This document shows, one piece after another, positions 1,360-38,777 of a DNA stretch of 64,000 nucleotides (position 1 is the stretch's first letter; each line of letters starts with the position of its first letter). The stretch comes from Bacteroidota bacterium (GTDB lineage Bacteria > Bacteroidota > Bacteroidia > B-17B0 > Aurantibacillaceae), in assembly GCA_029237825.1 (NCBI GenBank), contig JAQZBQ010000010.1, positions 1 through 64,000 of the forward strand, in the 5' to 3' direction. The notes under the pieces are model-generated. The model was not told the origin of the DNA. It ran no database searches and was given only the letters and a program-made list of their open reading frames with translations. A program made the position numbers and the translations under genes.

Positions 1360-3885
1360 ATGAAGGTAGCCCTGCGGATAATAATATTTTTTCTTTTTAG
1401 TTCCGTTATCGTAGTAGGTCAAGATTGGACACTTCCTTTTTCCAGTCGCGTTGAAAAAAACGGTAAAAAACTTATCGGAGCAACTATTACGCTCATGCAG
1501 GGAAATAAACAGGTCCTTCAAACTATTACCGGGGAAGATGGAGCCTTTAAACTACAGATACCGCCGAACGGGGATTTTACGGTAATTGTTACTAAGCCAG
1601 GTCATTGCGTAAAAAAGTTTCAGGTTTCAACACGCGGGGTACCTCCTGATAAAACTCAAAATAATTTTAAAGGGTTTAATATCGAGGCAATTAGTTTATT
1701 TGAACCCCTTCCAAATATAGATTATTCGGTATTAAATCAGCCCTTGGTTAAAGTAACGTATGATCCGACGAAAGACAATTTCGAATACGATGAGGCGTAT
1801 AGTAACCAAATGCTTTCCGCTTTAGACAGACTGAGGCAGTTAGAACAGGACGCGATTAATAAACAAAAAGAACTGGAAGCAAATTATTCAGCGTCGTTAA
1901 AATCTGCAGATAAAGCGTTTCAAAAAAAAGATTGGGTCACAGCCCGTGCCGGTTATAACCAGGCCTTAACTTATAAACCAGGTGAGATTTATCCAAAAGA
2001 TCAGCTTGCACAGATTGAAGTAATTATTAAAGATCAGGAAGCGCTCAACAAAAAAGCCGCTGATGATGCTAAAGCAAAAGCTGACGCGGAAGCAGCTGCA
2101 AAAAAGAAAGCTGAGGAGGAAGCTGCCCGTGTTGCTAAGGAAAAGGCTGACAAATTAGCGGCGGAAGCAGCTGCAAAAGCGAAAGCCGAAGCAGAAGCTA
2201 AAGCCAAAGCGGAAGCTGAAGCTGCAGCAAAAAAGAAAGCGGAAGAAGAAGCAGCACGATTAGCAAAGGAAAAAGCGGATGCAGAAGCTAAAGCAAAAGC
2301 AGAGGCCGAGGCTGCAGCAAAAAAGAAAGCTGAGGAGGAAGCTACCCGTATTGCTAAGGAAAAGGCTGATAAATTAGCGGCGGAGGCAGCAGCAAAAGCG
2401 AAAGCCGAAGCTGAAGCCAAAGCAAAAGCAGACGCCGAAGCAGCGGCTAAAAAGAAAGCCGAAGAAGAAGCAGCACGATTAGCAAAGGAAAAAGCGGATG
2501 CAGAAGCTAAAGCAAAAGCAGAGGCCGAAGCAGCAGCTAAGAAAAAAGCTGAGGAAGAAGCGGCCCGTCTTGCTAAGGAAAAGGCTGATAAATTAGCGGC
2601 GGAGGCAGCGGCAAAAGCGAAAGCCGAAGCTGAAGCCAAAGCCAAAGCAGACGCCGAAGCAGCGGCTAAAAAGAAAGCCGAAGAAGAAGCAGCACGATTA
2701 GCAAAGGAAAAAGCGGATGCAGAAGCTAAAGCAAAAGAAGAGGCCGAGGCCGCAGCTAAGAAAAAAGCTGAGGAAGAAGCTGCCCGTCTTGCTAAGGAAA
2801 AGGCTGATAAATTAGCGGCGGAGGCAGCAGCAAAAGCGAAAGCCGAAGCCGAAGCCAAAGCAAAAGCAGACGCCGAAGCAGCGGCTAAGAAGAAAGCCGA
2901 AGAAGAAGCAGCACGATTAGCAAAGGAAAATGCTGATAAACTTAATGCCGAGGCTAAAGCCAAAGCAGACGCCGAAGCCGCAGCTAAGAAGAAAGCTGAG
3001 GAAGAAGCAGCACGTCTTGCAAAAGAAAATGCAGATAAACTGGCTGCCGAGGCAGCGGCAAAAGCGAAAGCCGAAGCGGAGACCAAAGCCAAAGCAGACG
3101 CAGAAGCTGCAGCAAAAAAGAAAGCTGAGGAAGAAGCTGCCCGTATTGCTAAAGAAAATGCAGATAAACTGACTGCTGAAGCTAAAGCCAAAGCGGACGC
3201 TGAAGCAGCAGCTAAGAAAAAATCTGTGGAAGAAGCAGCACGTCTTGCAAAAGAAAATGCTGATAAACTTGCTGCCGAGGCCAAAGCCAAAGCGGACGCT
3301 GAAGCAGCAGCTAAGAAGAAGGCTGAGGAAGAAGCCGCTCGTCTTGCAAAAGAAAATGCAGATAAACTTACTGCCGAGGCCAAAGCCAAGGCAGATGCTG
3401 AAGCAGCAGCTAAGAAAAAAGCTGAGGAAGAAGCAGCTCGCCTGGCAAAAGAGAAAGCTAACAAGGAAAAAAACACACCGCCACCCTTTGACAAATATAA
3501 AGATGCGATCGCAAAGGCAGACGGATTATTTAAATCCAAGAAATACAAAGAATCTAAAACTGCTTATGAAGACGCTTTAATTGCAAAGTCTGGCGATTCC
3601 TATGCTAAAAAGCAGTTAGCTGAAATTGAAAAGCTACTAAAATCAGATGTGGCAACTGCGGCGGATGTTGATGCAAGACAAAAAAGCCTTCTGGCAAAAT
3701 ACAGTCCCGGAGTTACTGAAGAAACCATTAGCGGCCCTGGAGTGGTCATTATTCAAAGGGTTGTGGTAAAAGAAACAGTTGCATATGTTTATCAAAAGAA
3801 AATTTTTAGCTGGGGTGGTGTTACCTATTTCCGCGATGCATCCACAATAACCGAATCAACTTTCGAACAAGAAACAAAACCTTAA
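1360..3885 (+). CDS. Secreted protein with 13-copy Ala/Lys/Glu coiled-coil repeat
   Basis: The reading frame is open further upstream, but ATG 1360 is the likely start. It begins a clean signal peptide (MKVALRIIIFFLFSS..., cleavage near residue 21) and sits 6 nt after a near-consensus -7 box. The product is 841 residues. Residues about 30-105 resemble a carboxypeptidase-regulatory/CNA-B-like beta domain (LIGATITL, GEDGAFKL). A TPR-like helix pair is near residues 185-230, and a second, similar unit near 710-755 (KSKKYKESKTAYEDAL). Between them about 480 residues consist of 13 imperfect copies of AAAKKKAEEEAAR-LAKE with ADAEAKAKAEAE spacers, a very highly charged helical rod. TolA-like rods look similar, but no TolA or TonB C-terminal domain is visible. 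It probably lies in the periplasm or at the envelope. Function unknown. Confidence 0.85.
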   Translation: MKVALRIIIFFLFSSVIVVGQDWTLPFSSRVEKNGKKLIGATITLMQGNKQVLQTITGEDGAFKLQIPPNGDFTVIVTKPGHCVKKFQVSTRGVPPDKTQNNFKGFNIEAISLFEPLPNIDYSVLNQPLVKVTYDPTKDNFEYDEAYSNQMLSALDRLRQLEQDAINKQKELEANYSASLKSADKAFQKKDWVTARAGYNQALTYKPGEIYPKDQLAQIEVIIKDQEALNKKAADDAKAKADAEAAAKKKAEEEAARVAKEKADKLAAEAAAKAKAEAEAKAKAEAEAAAKKKAEEEAARLAKEKADAEAKAKAEAEAAAKKKAEEEATRIAKEKADKLAAEAAAKAKAEAEAKAKADAEAAAKKKAEEEAARLAKEKADAEAKAKAEAEAAAKKKAEEEAARLAKEKADKLAAEAAAKAKAEAEAKAKADAEAAAKKKAEEEAARLAKEKADAEAKAKEEAEAAAKKKAEEEAARLAKEKADKLAAEAAAKAKAEAEAKAKADAEAAAKKKAEEEAARLAKENADKLNAEAKAKADAEAAAKKKAEEEAARLAKENADKLAAEAAAKAKAEAETKAKADAEAAAKKKAEEEAARIAKENADKLTAEAKAKADAEAAAKKKSVEEAARLAKENADKLAAEAKAKADAEAAAKKKAEEEAARLAKENADKLTAEAKAKADAEAAAKKKAEEEAARLAKEKANKEKNTPPPFDKYKDAIAKADGLFKSKKYKESKTAYEDALIAKSGDSYAKKQLAEIEKLLKSDVATAADVDARQKSLLAKYSPGVTEETISGPGVVIIQRVVVKETVAYVYQKKIFSWGGVTYFRDASTITESTFEQETKP
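2030..3470 (+). repeat. Coding tandem repeat (Ala/Lys/Glu rod)
   Basis: Thirteen copies of a unit coding for AAAKKKAEEEAAR followed by LAKEKAD or LAKENAD, separated by spacers of two lengths (with or without KLAAEAAAKAKAEAEA). Two-unit blocks around 2220-2810 are nearly identical at the DNA level, which points to recent duplication by slippage or unequal crossing-over. The complementary strand stays open for about 1.5 kb across the repeat only because of the Ala/Lys/Glu codon composition. Confidence 0.9.
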
Positions 3886-15551: not shown

Positions 15552-16089
15552 GTTTGATTCGTTTTTCATAACGATATTTTTGAAGTGGTTGTTTTGTTTT
15601 TAAAGACAGAGTAACCGCTTTAACTTTTATGGTTGGATGTGGCCGGGAAACTTCAGAAAGTATTAAAATAAGGGCGTACCGGCGCAAGTGACAGGCGCCG
15701 TCGGGCTTTCGGCACTCGCTTTTTTATTCGCATGCATGCTTCATAAAAAGAGCTCAAACAAATGCCTCAATCCCTTACGCGAATTAATTTTCAATAAGAA
15801 GTGATATTTTTTACCGCTAAATCTACTTTGTAAATTATAGATTGTATGTTAACATATGATTTTGTGCGATTTAAAATTGAGAAGCATTATAAATAAAACA
15901 AAATCAAAATACATGAGTAAATGTGCAGCAGGCTTTTGGCTATTCGGTGATGACAAAACAGAACATTGGTTCAGAGAGATCTCGAAAATTTAAAACTTCT
16001 TTCACGAATACTACAATGGTTTTTATTCCATGGCTAAATACCTTTGAACTTAAAATCAACTTTACTTATAACTTCAAAATTTACGTACC
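15552..16089. other. Gene-free stretch holding a dispersed repeat
   Basis: No supportable gene lies in these 538 nt. A short open frame at 15923-16183 overlaps the DUF3606 gene and lacks coding character. The stretch contains one copy of the dispersed hairpin repeat (about 15666-15780) and otherwise AT-rich sequence leading to the DUF3606 gene. Confidence 0.6.
15666..15780 (-). repeat. Dispersed hairpin repeat, copy A
   Basis: Read on the minus strand it starts GCGTAAGGGATTG, then CTTTTTATGA, CGAATAAAAA, CCGAAAGCCCGAC, a hairpin CGGCGC-ctgtcactt-GCGCCG, and ACGCCCTTATT. The same blocks, in order, occur on the plus strand at 38687-38777 with a different hairpin. I take it as a dispersed intergenic element of this genome, orientation as read here. 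Confidence 0.75.
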
Positions 16090-16287: not shown

Positions 16288-16602
16288 TCAAGCTGGTTTT
16301 ATTAAACGATTTTTGGCATACTTAACAAAAAGGTTTTCTGGTAAGCCCTCCCTGGATTTCTGGCAATAGAGATTTACCGCTTCTAACAACATGACCTTAA
16401 GGCCTTCTTCAATATTTGGAGGTAAATTATTATTGATAACACCATTTTGCAAGGTGGCAAAAATGTAATAATGCCTTTCGTTGTGTCGGAGTACAAAAGC
16501 GTAATTTCCATCTTCCTTTTTACCGGTTAGTATTACTGGTGGCAAAAAAGGTAACAATATTGTATTCTTATAAAAGACAGGTGAGGTTTTTAATGAATTC
16601 AT
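16288..16602 (-). CDS. Hypothetical protein, 104 aa
   Basis: Unrecognised protein of 104 residues without signal peptide. The middle (YAFVLRHNERHYYIFATLQNG) looks like an antiparallel beta-sheet, followed by a helix (GLKVMLLEAVNLYCQK) and a basic tail. It starts at ATG 16602 and converges with the DUF3606 gene. Codon use is like its neighbours, so it is probably real. Confidence 0.6.
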   Translation of the reverse strand: MNSLKTSPVFYKNTILLPFLPPVILTGKKEDGNYAFVLRHNERHYYIFATLQNGVINNNLPPNIEEGLKVMLLEAVNLYCQKSREGLPENLFVKYAKNRLIKPA

Positions 16603-16797
16603 AATTCCTAAATTAGAAATTGTTTTTCAAAGCCACTTTACAACTTTTTAATAAAACTCAGTTCGAAACATAATCTGTCTAAAATATAATAGAACAAGTG
16701 CCTTATAGTTGGCATTTTACAATATAAATCTATCAGTTTATATTAAGTTCATTTAAAAACATATAGCCTCTATCCACTTGCTTAAATGCGGATAAAA

Positions 16798-17181
16798 CTA
16801 TAACGACGGATAATAGATGATTTTGGTAACACATATTACACCATCTACATTTTTGTTATGATCTTTAAGTGGATAATAAGAAGATTCGAAAATTGCCCCG
16901 TCATTGGTAATAGTACCCCTTGTGCGCGCGTTGTTTACTTCATTACCTTCTAGTGCTTCCAGTAAATGTCCATACGATTTTGAGGAAGCAAGAGCAGGAA
17001 ACGCCTGAAGAAGCTTATTACCCAATATCTCCTCCTGGGTTTTACTCAGTAATTTTAAAGCATTTTCATTGGCTAAAACATAATGTAATTGCTTATCCAA
17101 TACCGCTATCACATGGTCTTTGTTTTTCTCCGCAACTTTATAAATAAGGTCCGAATATTTTTTTAAAATGTCTGTATCCAT
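16798..17181 (-). CDS. Stand-alone PAS domain protein
   Basis: A 127-residue protein with a single PAS domain over about residues 18-122 (HVIAVLDKQLHYVLANENAL, EEILGNKLLQAFP, SYYPLKDHNKNVDGVICVTK). It has no output domain. Single-domain PAS proteins either pass ligand or redox signals by protein contact or belong to split sensor systems. No partner is adjacent; the nearest signalling gene is the lone receiver protein at 19374-19772. Confidence 0.82.
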   Translation of the reverse strand: MDTDILKKYSDLIYKVAEKNKDHVIAVLDKQLHYVLANENALKLLSKTQEEILGNKLLQAFPALASSKSYGHLLEALEGNEVNNARTRGTITNDGAIFESSYYPLKDHNKNVDGVICVTKIIYYPSL

Positions 17182-17340
17182 AGTAATGCGGCTTAAATAA
17201 GGCTAAAAGACGAATTTAAAATAATTAAAGCCAAGGTATAACAAATTCCAATGTCTCCAAAACGGGAAAAGAAAAAAATGAAATTTAACGACAGAACACC
17301 AAGCTGGAAAGCAACCCTCTTTAATTGGTTCTGTTAAGCG

Positions 17341-17886
17341 CCGGCCGGAGTTCCGCATTTTTTAATCCGTGGCGGTGTGCTTTGTTGGCGATTCGGTATT
17401 CAGGCATCCTGTGCCATTTTGGTACCATTTTGTTTTGCTTTGGTTGCAGGATGTAACAGGAAGCTGATGTATTGGGCCGCCAGGCAAGCATCCCGTGCCA
17501 GCCTGTTACCTGATTGTGGCGTTTAACTGATTGGCTGTGCCGGGATGAAAGCATCCCTTACCACTACTCTACTTAACTGACACAGCAGGCCTGCATCCTG
17601 TGTCGGAATGTAAGCATCGTGTGACGGGATGGTAGCATCCCGTACCAATAAAGTAGCAATGTGTGTCGGGATGGTAGAATCCTGTGTCATTAATTAAGCA
17701 CCCCGTACCAGTTAACTAGCGTCCTGTACCAATAAAGTAGATTCCTGTGCCGGGATGGTAGCATCCTGTGTCATTAATTATGCATCCCGTACCATTTAGG
17801 TAAAATCCTGTGTCGGGATGGCAGCATCCCGTACCATTAATTACGCATCCCGTACCAGTTAAGTAGCATCCCAACCCAATTACTAC
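17341..17886. repeat. 21-bp tandem minisatellite with hairpin-forming units
   Basis: Units of exactly 21 bp. Fourteen consecutive units run from 17593 to 17886, with consensus GCATCC-YGTRYC-9nt. The 9-nt tail has three versions: GGGATGGTA, A(A/G)TTAAGTA-like and ATTAATTAn. Degenerate units keep the same register upstream (17404, 17488, 17551), so the array began at least 19 units earlier and decays towards 17341. A GGGATGGTA tail followed by GCATCCCG forms a perfect hairpin CGGGATG-gtag-CATCCCG. Stop codons break all six frames, though on the minus strand a heptapeptide pattern YxxGTGC can be read in two segments separated by TAG at 17716-17718. There is no space between units, so this is not CRISPR. 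Confidence 0.9.
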
Positions 17887-18197
17887 CACTTATGCTACAA
17901 GTTGCCCACCTTATTGCATTTAGATTTACCAGTTGCAAAATTCCTTGCACCTTTTTTACACAGCATCGTTATATGGTGTAATTAATACAAGGTATCACTT
18001 AACATAAAGAAGCCATGCCACCTTACACCACCGCCGTAGCGCATCATTAAGCCGGTTGCCTGCCCTGTTTGAAATCCTGAACGTTCGCCTCTGTATACTG
18101 CTTATCGCCCGATTTCAACACAAGCCGGCAGCCTTTACGGCAAAAAAAGTCCAAGTAAAAAAGACGGTATACTTTAACACTTAAACATTTTTCAATC
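17887..18197. other. Gene-free stretch between the 21-bp array and the FN3 gene
   Basis: I see no gene, hairpin or repeat in these 311 nt. The base composition becomes more GC-rich towards 18020-18150, matching the following two genes rather than the region upstream. Confidence 0.5.
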
Positions 18198-18803
18198 ATG
18201 AAAAAAAGTAGTTTAAAGGCGGTTTTAAATATGAGTCAGCTCAGCATAGCCGCCAAAATTAACCGGGCCAGGCTAATTGTACAGGCAATAGACTCTCACC
18301 CCAATACCTTTACAAACCCTGTACCTTCGCTTAACAGCGTGTACCTGGCCATTGATGAACTCGAGGCAGCTTATACCGGTGCCTCGGATGGCGGAAAAAC
18401 AAAAACGCGTGTGATGTATGATAAGGAGGACGCGCTGATGCTTTTAATGAACGACCTGGCTTCTTACGTGCAAATGGTAGCCGCTGGAGACGACGGGATT
18501 GTGCACCTGGCAGGGCTCGAAGTAAAAAGCTTTAGCAGGCGTAACCCGAGGGATTTTTCTGTAGAACAGGGCGATCATACCTGCTCGGCAGTGGTTACGG
18601 CACCTTACGTCAGGCGTGCAGCCTACCTGTGGGAATACACTAACGACCCGTCAGGCTCATGGATAAGCGCCGGAGATACCCTTACCAGCAGCATCGAAAT
18701 AAATGACCTGGTACCGGGAACGCGTTACTGGTTCAGGGTGGCGGTTATAGACAGTACCGGAAGGCACCCGTTTAACACACCGCTGAGTTTAATTGTATTA
18801 TAA
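18198..18803 (+). CDS. FN3-like domain protein, 201 aa
   Basis: A 201-residue protein without signal peptide. The N-terminal half (1-110) is helical and unrecognised; the C-terminal half (about 115-200) fits a fibronectin type III fold (AYLWEYTNDPSGSW, INDLVPGTRYWFRVAVID, the typical GxxYxFRVxAV core). Start ATG 18198. The gene is more GC-rich than its neighbours and lies just after the 21-bp array, with a second small gene 28 nt downstream, so the pair may be one transferred cassette. Function unknown. Confidence 0.7.
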   Translation: MKKSSLKAVLNMSQLSIAAKINRARLIVQAIDSHPNTFTNPVPSLNSVYLAIDELEAAYTGASDGGKTKTRVMYDKEDALMLLMNDLASYVQMVAAGDDGIVHLAGLEVKSFSRRNPRDFSVEQGDHTCSAVVTAPYVRRAAYLWEYTNDPSGSWISAGDTLTSSIEINDLVPGTRYWFRVAVIDSTGRHPFNTPLSLIVL

Positions 18804-18831: not shown

Positions 18832-19182
18832 ATGGAAAGCTCACGCAAACCGCAGGCCGTTCAGTTCATAGCCGATGATCACCTGCTACGGTTTATTGAT
18901 GAACAGGCTAAACACAAACCACACAATGCCATGGTGCAATTGCTGCACAAAGCAGTAGGTGCACAACCCACCACGCAGGACACGCTGTGGTGGACCGTGT
19001 TTTTACTAACATGGGTAAGCGCCGACGAACTGGCAAAAAAAGAACTGATACAGGCCATAGCCAACGGCAGCAAACTTACCAAGGCCGATGCGGGGCGGGC
19101 ACTCGAAAATGGTGCCAAAGCCATTAAGCTGCTGGTAGATGCCGGCATGCAAAGTGGTAACCTGTACGACTGCGGTTGCTAA
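18832..19182 (+). CDS. Hypothetical protein, 116 aa
   Basis: Unrecognised 116-residue protein, mostly alpha-helical, with a short hydrophobic stretch (LWWTVFLLTWVSA) and a C-terminal CGC. It is 28 nt downstream of the FN3 gene in the same direction and shares its higher GC content. A strong intrinsic terminator follows at 19204-19238, marking the end of the two-gene unit. Confidence 0.6.
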   Translation: MESSRKPQAVQFIADDHLLRFIDEQAKHKPHNAMVQLLHKAVGAQPTTQDTLWWTVFLLTWVSADELAKKELIQAIANGSKLTKADAGRALENGAKAIKLLVDAGMQSGNLYDCGC

Positions 19183-19203
19183 AGCGGTTTTTTTAACCAT
19201 GCG

Positions 19204-19238
19204 AAAAGCGGAAACTGATGGTTCCGCTTTTTTTTTTC
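19204..19238 (+). terminator. Rho-independent terminator
   Basis: A 10-bp perfect stem AAAAGCGGAA/TTCCGCTTTT with an 8-nt loop, followed by a run of T. It ends the FN3/116-aa transcription unit. Confidence 0.85.
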
Positions 19239-38616: not shown

Positions 38617-38686
38617 TTGACATACGAACTATTACTTACTAAGTAGATATAGAGTAATATCGTACACCATCGAGCAGCGGTGAAAG

Positions 38687-38777
38687 CGTGAGGGATTGCA
38701 GTGGAAATCCTTTTTATGAGGAACGAATAAAAAGATTGCAACGAAAAGCCCGACCCTTTAGGGTCACGCCCTTATTC
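38687..38777 (+). repeat. Dispersed hairpin repeat, copy B
   Basis: Plus-strand copy of the same element as at 15666-15780: GCGTGAGGGATTG, CTTTTTATGA, CGAATAAAAA, ACGAAAAGCCCGA, hairpin GACCC-ttta-GGGTC, ACGCCCTTATT. The loop hairpin differs in sequence but keeps its pairing. Confidence 0.8.

Follow-up and report, generated by a model that had tools for sequence, protein, structure and literature searches.

Tandem arrays with a period of about 21 bp recurrently precede genes of an FN3-domain family in Bacteroidota

The intergenic repeat array that we analysed in a 64,000-nucleotide stretch of a Bacteroidota genome (the window) is one example of a recurrent non-coding cis-architecture of Bacteroidota, in which genes for a protein with a helical region and an FN3 domain are accompanied, mostly within about 1 kb upstream, by a tandem array with units of two helical turns (20-22 bp); we hold this conclusion with high confidence. 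Functional DNA is usually recognised through conserved sequence, whereas these arrays, across many genera, keep length, place and symmetry instead, and as there is no conserved array sequence, homology searches miss the feature. The pattern is apparently undescribed, a provisional statement because our literature search was incomplete in coverage; it returned no description of FN3-linked arrays, and only the BrickBuilt element came close.

The array in the window and the gene behind it

The core of the array (17593..17886) consists of 14 contiguous units of 21 bp, with starts at 17593, 17614 and so on to 17866 in the unit table. It is preceded by a distal degenerate part (17404..17592) in the same register, where in-phase relic heads at 17404, 17488 and 17551 match 12, 12 and 11 of the 12 head positions and the intervening units are no longer recognisable. 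That this is a real repeat array is confirmed: its head-to-tail units of constant length lie well above chance, with a 21-bp comb score of 0.631 at 17593 as the best of the window, compared to 0.45 for the second-best place (a coding repeat at 2110) and to a maximum of 0.367 in 60 Markov-1 simulations of 64 kb each, and TRF detects it at periods 21, 42, 63 and 84. A previous reading of the DNA from its sequence only had recognised the strict 21-bp register correctly, but its 'nineteen or more' units come down to about 17 recognisable ones (14 plus the three relics). Each unit is composed of a 12-nt head, GCATCCYGTRYC, and a 9-nt tail, for which the unit table displays the three types already noticed in that reading. 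The head (positions 1-12) is better preserved than the tail, with 1.11 versus 0.66 bits per column, and 15 of the 26 head-like words in the window lie inside the array.

Dyads in the window array sit only at unit junctions. A perfect hairpin had been proposed wherever one tail type meets the next head; among the four GGGATGG-(T/C)AG junctions, the CGGGATG-N4-CATCCCG hairpin is perfect at two, CGGGATG-gtag-CATCCCG at 17625..17642 and CGGGATG-gcag-CATCCCG at 17814..17831, and imperfect at the other two. The earlier remark on hairpins, taken more generally as an enrichment of dyad symmetry, is borne out by the arrays described below as a set, although the averaged unit of the window array does not reach significance by itself (z 0.03). 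The minus strand has an RNA folding z of -3.5. It can also be read as the heptapeptide YxxGTGC, broken by stops such as the TAG at 17716-17718, just as the sequence-only reading had it, and stops are present in all six frames of the array.

The unit is single-copy in its own genome, and BLAST found no match to the array sequence in 60 relatives or in plasmids. Rfam gave no match for the array, its sole match in the window being a Flavo-1 RNA (RF01705, 57 bits) at 38681-38759 on the plus strand. As the unit sequence is absent elsewhere, the array taken alone would be an ordinary private minisatellite. The previously proposed rule that a conserved role is unlikely if the array occurs nowhere else is nevertheless inapplicable, because the sequence is private and the architecture is recurrent. 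The left flank (16328-17262) contains a PAS-domain ORF and an ORF of 104 aa; a paralogous copy of it, on another contig of the same genome (C21; locus L048), lacks both the array and the FN3 gene. The window also contains short interspersed repeats at 15672-15781, with 80-94% identity to numerous sites both in the own genome and in relatives from the genus, and long Ala/Lys/Glu-rich coding repeats with periods of 90-219 bp at 2050-3450.

Downstream of the array, a leader of unique sequence (17887..18197, plus strand) leads to the FN3-family gene (18198..18803, plus strand), whose 201-aa product comprises a strand and helices (about 110 aa) followed by the FN3 domain; at other loci, paralog homology covers gene and leader together. 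Pfam reports only a weak fn3 match and nothing above the curated cut-off, while the AlphaFold2 model (pLDDT 86.9) has the strand and helices followed by the FN3 domain, and Foldseek matches the C-terminal part to FN3 structures. On the basis of its homologs the ORF belongs to a Bacteroidota family, with matches in 19 of the 60 genomes searched (the own genome counted) and, at E <= 1e-15, in 43 of 295 genomes sampled from the class; at the looser E <= 1e-3 the latter number rises to 141, many of which are probably matches to the FN3 domain only. Up to about ten copies per genome are listed, plus further candidates from a first look. At the thresholds used, the protein was not found in viral contigs, phages or plasmids (72,556 plasmid records). 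Members are usually basic (median pI 9.4 versus 6.9 for neighbouring proteins, p 4e-10), although the window protein, with a pI of 6.1, is not, and hydrophobicity, the only property considered here, makes no strong signal peptide evident.

A second ORF of 116 aa follows at 18832..19182 (plus strand), and a terminator-like hairpin with a T-tract (19203..19232, plus strand) closes the unit. The GC-richer two-gene stretch directly after the array that the sequence-only reading described is borne out. A conserved two-gene cassette was rejected, as elsewhere the FN3 family occurs without linkage to the 116-aa gene. In the 116-aa ORF, residues 68-103 bear a weak resemblance to the N-terminal helices of HU (a Pfam match to PF00216 that stays below cut-off at E 0.0019), and related segments occur in HU-like proteins of about 97 aa in relatives; its single-sequence fold is poor (pLDDT 47). 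A strong hairpin just 3' of the FN3 stop is found in 48 of 60 homologous loci. At locus L124, around 28-90 bp past the FN3 stop, there is a palindromic element of about 62 bp that is present in high copy, on both strands, in genome G121 and its genus relatives. No common promoter motif was found in the FN3 leaders; GTTAAAGGGTGT-like words are common to three of them, from three genomes (L017, L021, L028), at about -190 to -330 from the FN3 start.

Arrays upstream of other FN3-family genes

At a first set of 25 homologous loci, TRF and autocorrelation revealed arrays upstream of the FN3 gene, with lags that are mostly multiples of 21 (or 20) and with unrelated units. A second set of 60 loci was picked by protein homology alone (a few genes overlap with the first set), and 1 kb upstream and 1 kb downstream were scored along with 410 distant 1-kb control segments from the same loci. 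The upstream segments exceeded the 95th percentile of these controls, which mix coding and intergenic DNA, in 53 of 56 cases and the 99th percentile in 44 of 56, compared to 6 and 3 of 59 downstream segments, counts that overstate independence because the loci are clustered by genome and genus. The best-scoring period in this set is 21, 42 or 63, except at a few loci, where it falls in the ranges 40-44 or 61-62. The typical array is about 330 bp long and ends about 210 bp before the ATG; three of the 56 loci (L094, L117 and L130) are without a clear array. The window array, with its 20-22-bp period, no more than 1 kb upstream of the FN3 gene and in the same orientation, belongs to this FN3-linked group. 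It had been asked whether the array always precedes the pair formed by the FN3 and the 116-aa gene: for the FN3 gene this is nearly always so, whereas the 116-aa gene is not a conserved partner.

A census of long intergenic gaps, which spans parts of two genomes only, gave two different pictures. The 86 gaps of at least 350 bp that were counted in 800 kb of the own genome are all free of 20-22-bp arrays, and the sole intergenic array in this sequence or in the window adjoins the single FN3 gene. In 800 kb of a second genome, G134, such arrays occupy 14 of 116 long gaps. Most FN3 genes in these 800 kb have an array, and about ten intergenic arrays with a period of 21 or 42 bp (contigs C44, C45 and C64; L155-L194) are without an FN3 gene. 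No FN3 relics were found within 2 kb of these stand-alone arrays, one of which precedes an uncharacterised gene of 329 aa (C44 near 56653). The FN3 gene is therefore not required in cis in G134.

Period, symmetry and turnover of the arrays

Most arrays repeat with a fundamental period of 21 bp, the others having 20, 20.25, 20.5, 20.75, 21.25, 21.5 or 22 bp; lengths such as 20, 20.5, 21.5 or 22 bp do not correspond to a whole number of codons. The period climbs with the GC content of the array (Spearman rho 0.40, p 5e-4), which is the direction expected if unit length tracks two helical turns, in a trend that is phylogenetically confounded, since one genus supplies all three 22-bp arrays. Variation among units has no codon-position pattern in the 44 arrays of 21 bp examined (43 at homologous loci and the window array; Stouffer -1.2, 1 of 44 at p<0.05). 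The codon statistics, like those on dyads and RNA folding, include only arrays that pass a periodicity threshold. Dyad symmetry exceeds a column-permutation null at p<0.05 in 25 of 63 arrays; against a relabelling null that preserves the order of conservation the Stouffer value is 8.8, and the excess over three paired controls, mirror and pseudo-complement among them, has p of about 2e-7 to 1e-6 (n=49). Intrinsic curvature, calculated from wedge values, displays no clear excess over column-permuted arrays (Stouffer 1.5-1.7) that would mark it as a selected property. Likewise, a polar, CRISPR-like growth toward the gene is not apparent: the proximal half is slightly more regular in 32 of 49 arrays (p 0.01), but the peak is unshifted (p 0.32).

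These data bear on two alternatives in which the array would act as RNA or protein. The sequence-only reading had left the choice between a structured non-coding array, which is supported in general, and a decayed heptapeptide-repeat gene, which is not. A heptapeptide-repeat gene on the minus strand, decayed or living, could be suspected because 21 bp equal seven codons, because the arrays L010 and L033 have open frames, and because stops are slightly fewer than in permuted arrays; but periods of 20, 20.5, 21 and 22 bp, the rise of period with GC and the absence of codon periodicity argue against such a gene and toward helical phasing. With the stops in all six frames of the window array in addition, we regard it as very improbable, and we have rejected it, having found neither the open frame nor the codon-biased variation of a repeat protein gene. 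If, instead, each unit formed a hairpin in a structured RNA, transcribed from the array as a 5' leader or as an antisense RNA and bound by FN3-family proteins, which are often basic, this would explain why arrays on either strand fold better than when their columns are permuted (mean z about -1.1) and why the minus strand of the window array folds so well. The folding has, on the other hand, no strand preference relative to the gene (21 of 49), for which reason a symmetry at the DNA level fits better than an RNA hairpin; the period follows the DNA helical repeat and GC content, and the window array is without an Rfam match, so that a structured RNA appears to us a decidedly unlikely explanation.

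Almost every locus has unit sequences of its own, an indication that what counts is spacing rather than sequence. Three same-genome pairs of paralogs, each pair at separate places (L096/L097, L143/L144 and L117/L127), have proteins that are 61-79% identical and leaders that can be aligned, and yet no match from array to array was found; of these loci, L117 has no clear array, as mentioned above. Homology between L096 and L097 extends from -530 to +707, ending at the 3' edge of the array and just past the gene, and that between L143 and L144 ends within about 60 bp of the 3' edge of the array; no shared neighbours were found for the paralog pairs. Between the orthologs L104 and L105, one locus in two close species, the array is kept with indels of unit blocks, while the orthologous locus L103/L106, with 70% protein identity and shared downstream genes, yielded no upstream match. 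Taken together, paralog and ortholog comparisons indicate that an array belongs to its place, persists in the short term and turns over faster than its surroundings, with its period staying. The unit sequence turns over faster than leader and gene, and period, position and orientation stay.

Possible roles and relation to known systems

The best explanation overall, which we favour tentatively and at somewhat less than even confidence, combines the FN3-linked architecture of two helical turns with a regulatory platform. The platform mechanism on its own is putative, and we consider it possible rather than probable. Rather than preserving a fixed sequence, selection would maintain the helical phase and, within each unit, a dyad-like site, and similar sites would line up along one face of the DNA. 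Such a row, lying upstream of a single-gene unit, might be a platform on which proteins bind cooperatively or wrap the DNA, and in this way control or insulate the FN3 gene; its units would be born by tandem duplication and later decay. The first candidate for the binder would be the FN3-family protein itself, which is small, usually basic and without an evident signal peptide, and the second a nucleoid protein. The FN3 protein of the window, which is not basic, and the averaged unit of its array without a significant dyad count against the platform, as do the stand-alone arrays of G134, the three FN3 loci that have no clear array, the curvature without a clear excess and the leaders without a common promoter motif. 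By analogy with iterons, each chromosomal member of the family may maintain an upstream array of its own, which it perhaps also builds and reads, the two forming iteron-like pairs with fast-diverging specificity; in this somewhat doubtful but tenable extension, helical period and symmetry instead of sequence would be the conserved information, and many different versions of such pairs would coexist in one genome.

Two further explanations dispense with a regulatory role. On the one hand, the arrays may be by-products of mobility or duplication, if the FN3 unit (leader, gene and hairpin) is copied and the array is either a preferred insertion site or is built at the 5' junction from local DNA. 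The sharp ends of the L096/L097 homology without shared neighbours agree with such copying, as does the array-free paralogous copy of the left flank of the window, and stand-alone arrays could be empty sites. Yet these stand-alone arrays have no FN3 relics, no empty orthologous site was found, and an incidental, unsystematic look noticed no transposase, terminal repeats or target duplications; a pure by-product moreover leaves the dyad excess unexplained, and we judge this explanation unlikely. Alternatively, the arrays could be neutral minisatellites of long intergenic gaps, produced by slippage or unequal crossing-over, processes that would favour a length of about 21 bp, and FN3 genes would simply have long gaps. 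Differences in sequence between arrays, their degenerate edges and the many arrays without FN3 genes in one genome are in line with neutrality, but the array-free long gaps of the own genome, set against the array at its single FN3 gene, and the 53 of 56 FN3 loci are not; neither are the near-constant period over many genera and the dyad excess, and we give neutrality little credence.

The regulatory platform, if correct, would make these arrays a natural collection of many independent cases in which the bacterial reading of DNA periodicity, and the joint divergence of arrays and their readers, could be studied, and a by-product of gene movement would reveal an unrecognised route by which bacterial minisatellites are born. 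In addition, the array gives a large, unexplained FN3 gene family a testable partner, and arrays may explain the assembly breaks beside some FN3 genes.

Several known systems invite comparison. BrickBuilt, a minisatellite or MITE of Porphyromonas gingivalis, has a unit of 23 nt, occupies many loci per genome, is predicted to form stem-loops and has reported promoter activity; its copies have their sequence, leader, tail and inverted-repeat ends in common, and gave no BLASTn match outside P. gingivalis (PMC4596501). The FN3-linked arrays are likewise intergenic tandem repeats in Bacteroidota genomes, but hardly any two loci have the same units, and what they have in common is an FN3 gene. A BrickBuilt-type MITE was rejected for the window array, whose unit is single-copy and for which no flanking pair of inverted repeats is reported. 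VNTRs in bacterial promoters also lie, as tandem repeats, upstream of a gene, whose expression they may tune (PMC3899988), and REP and other palindromic extragenic repeats are intergenic DNA with dyad symmetry, dispersed as copies of one sequence (PMC3733652). The FN3-linked arrays share intergenic dyads with REPs, from which they differ in being tandem and locus-specific. No VNTR class known to us keeps to a single gene family across genera while its helical period is fixed and its sequence is not.

Plasmid iterons, which lie upstream of rep genes, are direct repeats with units of about 17-22 bp. Like the FN3-linked arrays, they measure about two helical turns, lie upstream of a gene, have a sequence specific to the replicon and place their sites on one face of the DNA. 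In contrast to iterons, the gene adjacent to our arrays encodes an FN3-family protein and no Rep, so that a replication initiator is missing, and neither a replication function nor DnaA boxes nor a plasmid context has come to notice; the family gave no hit in the plasmid records. By analogy, the FN3-linked array would work most like plasmid iterons, minus the replication initiator gene that defines them.
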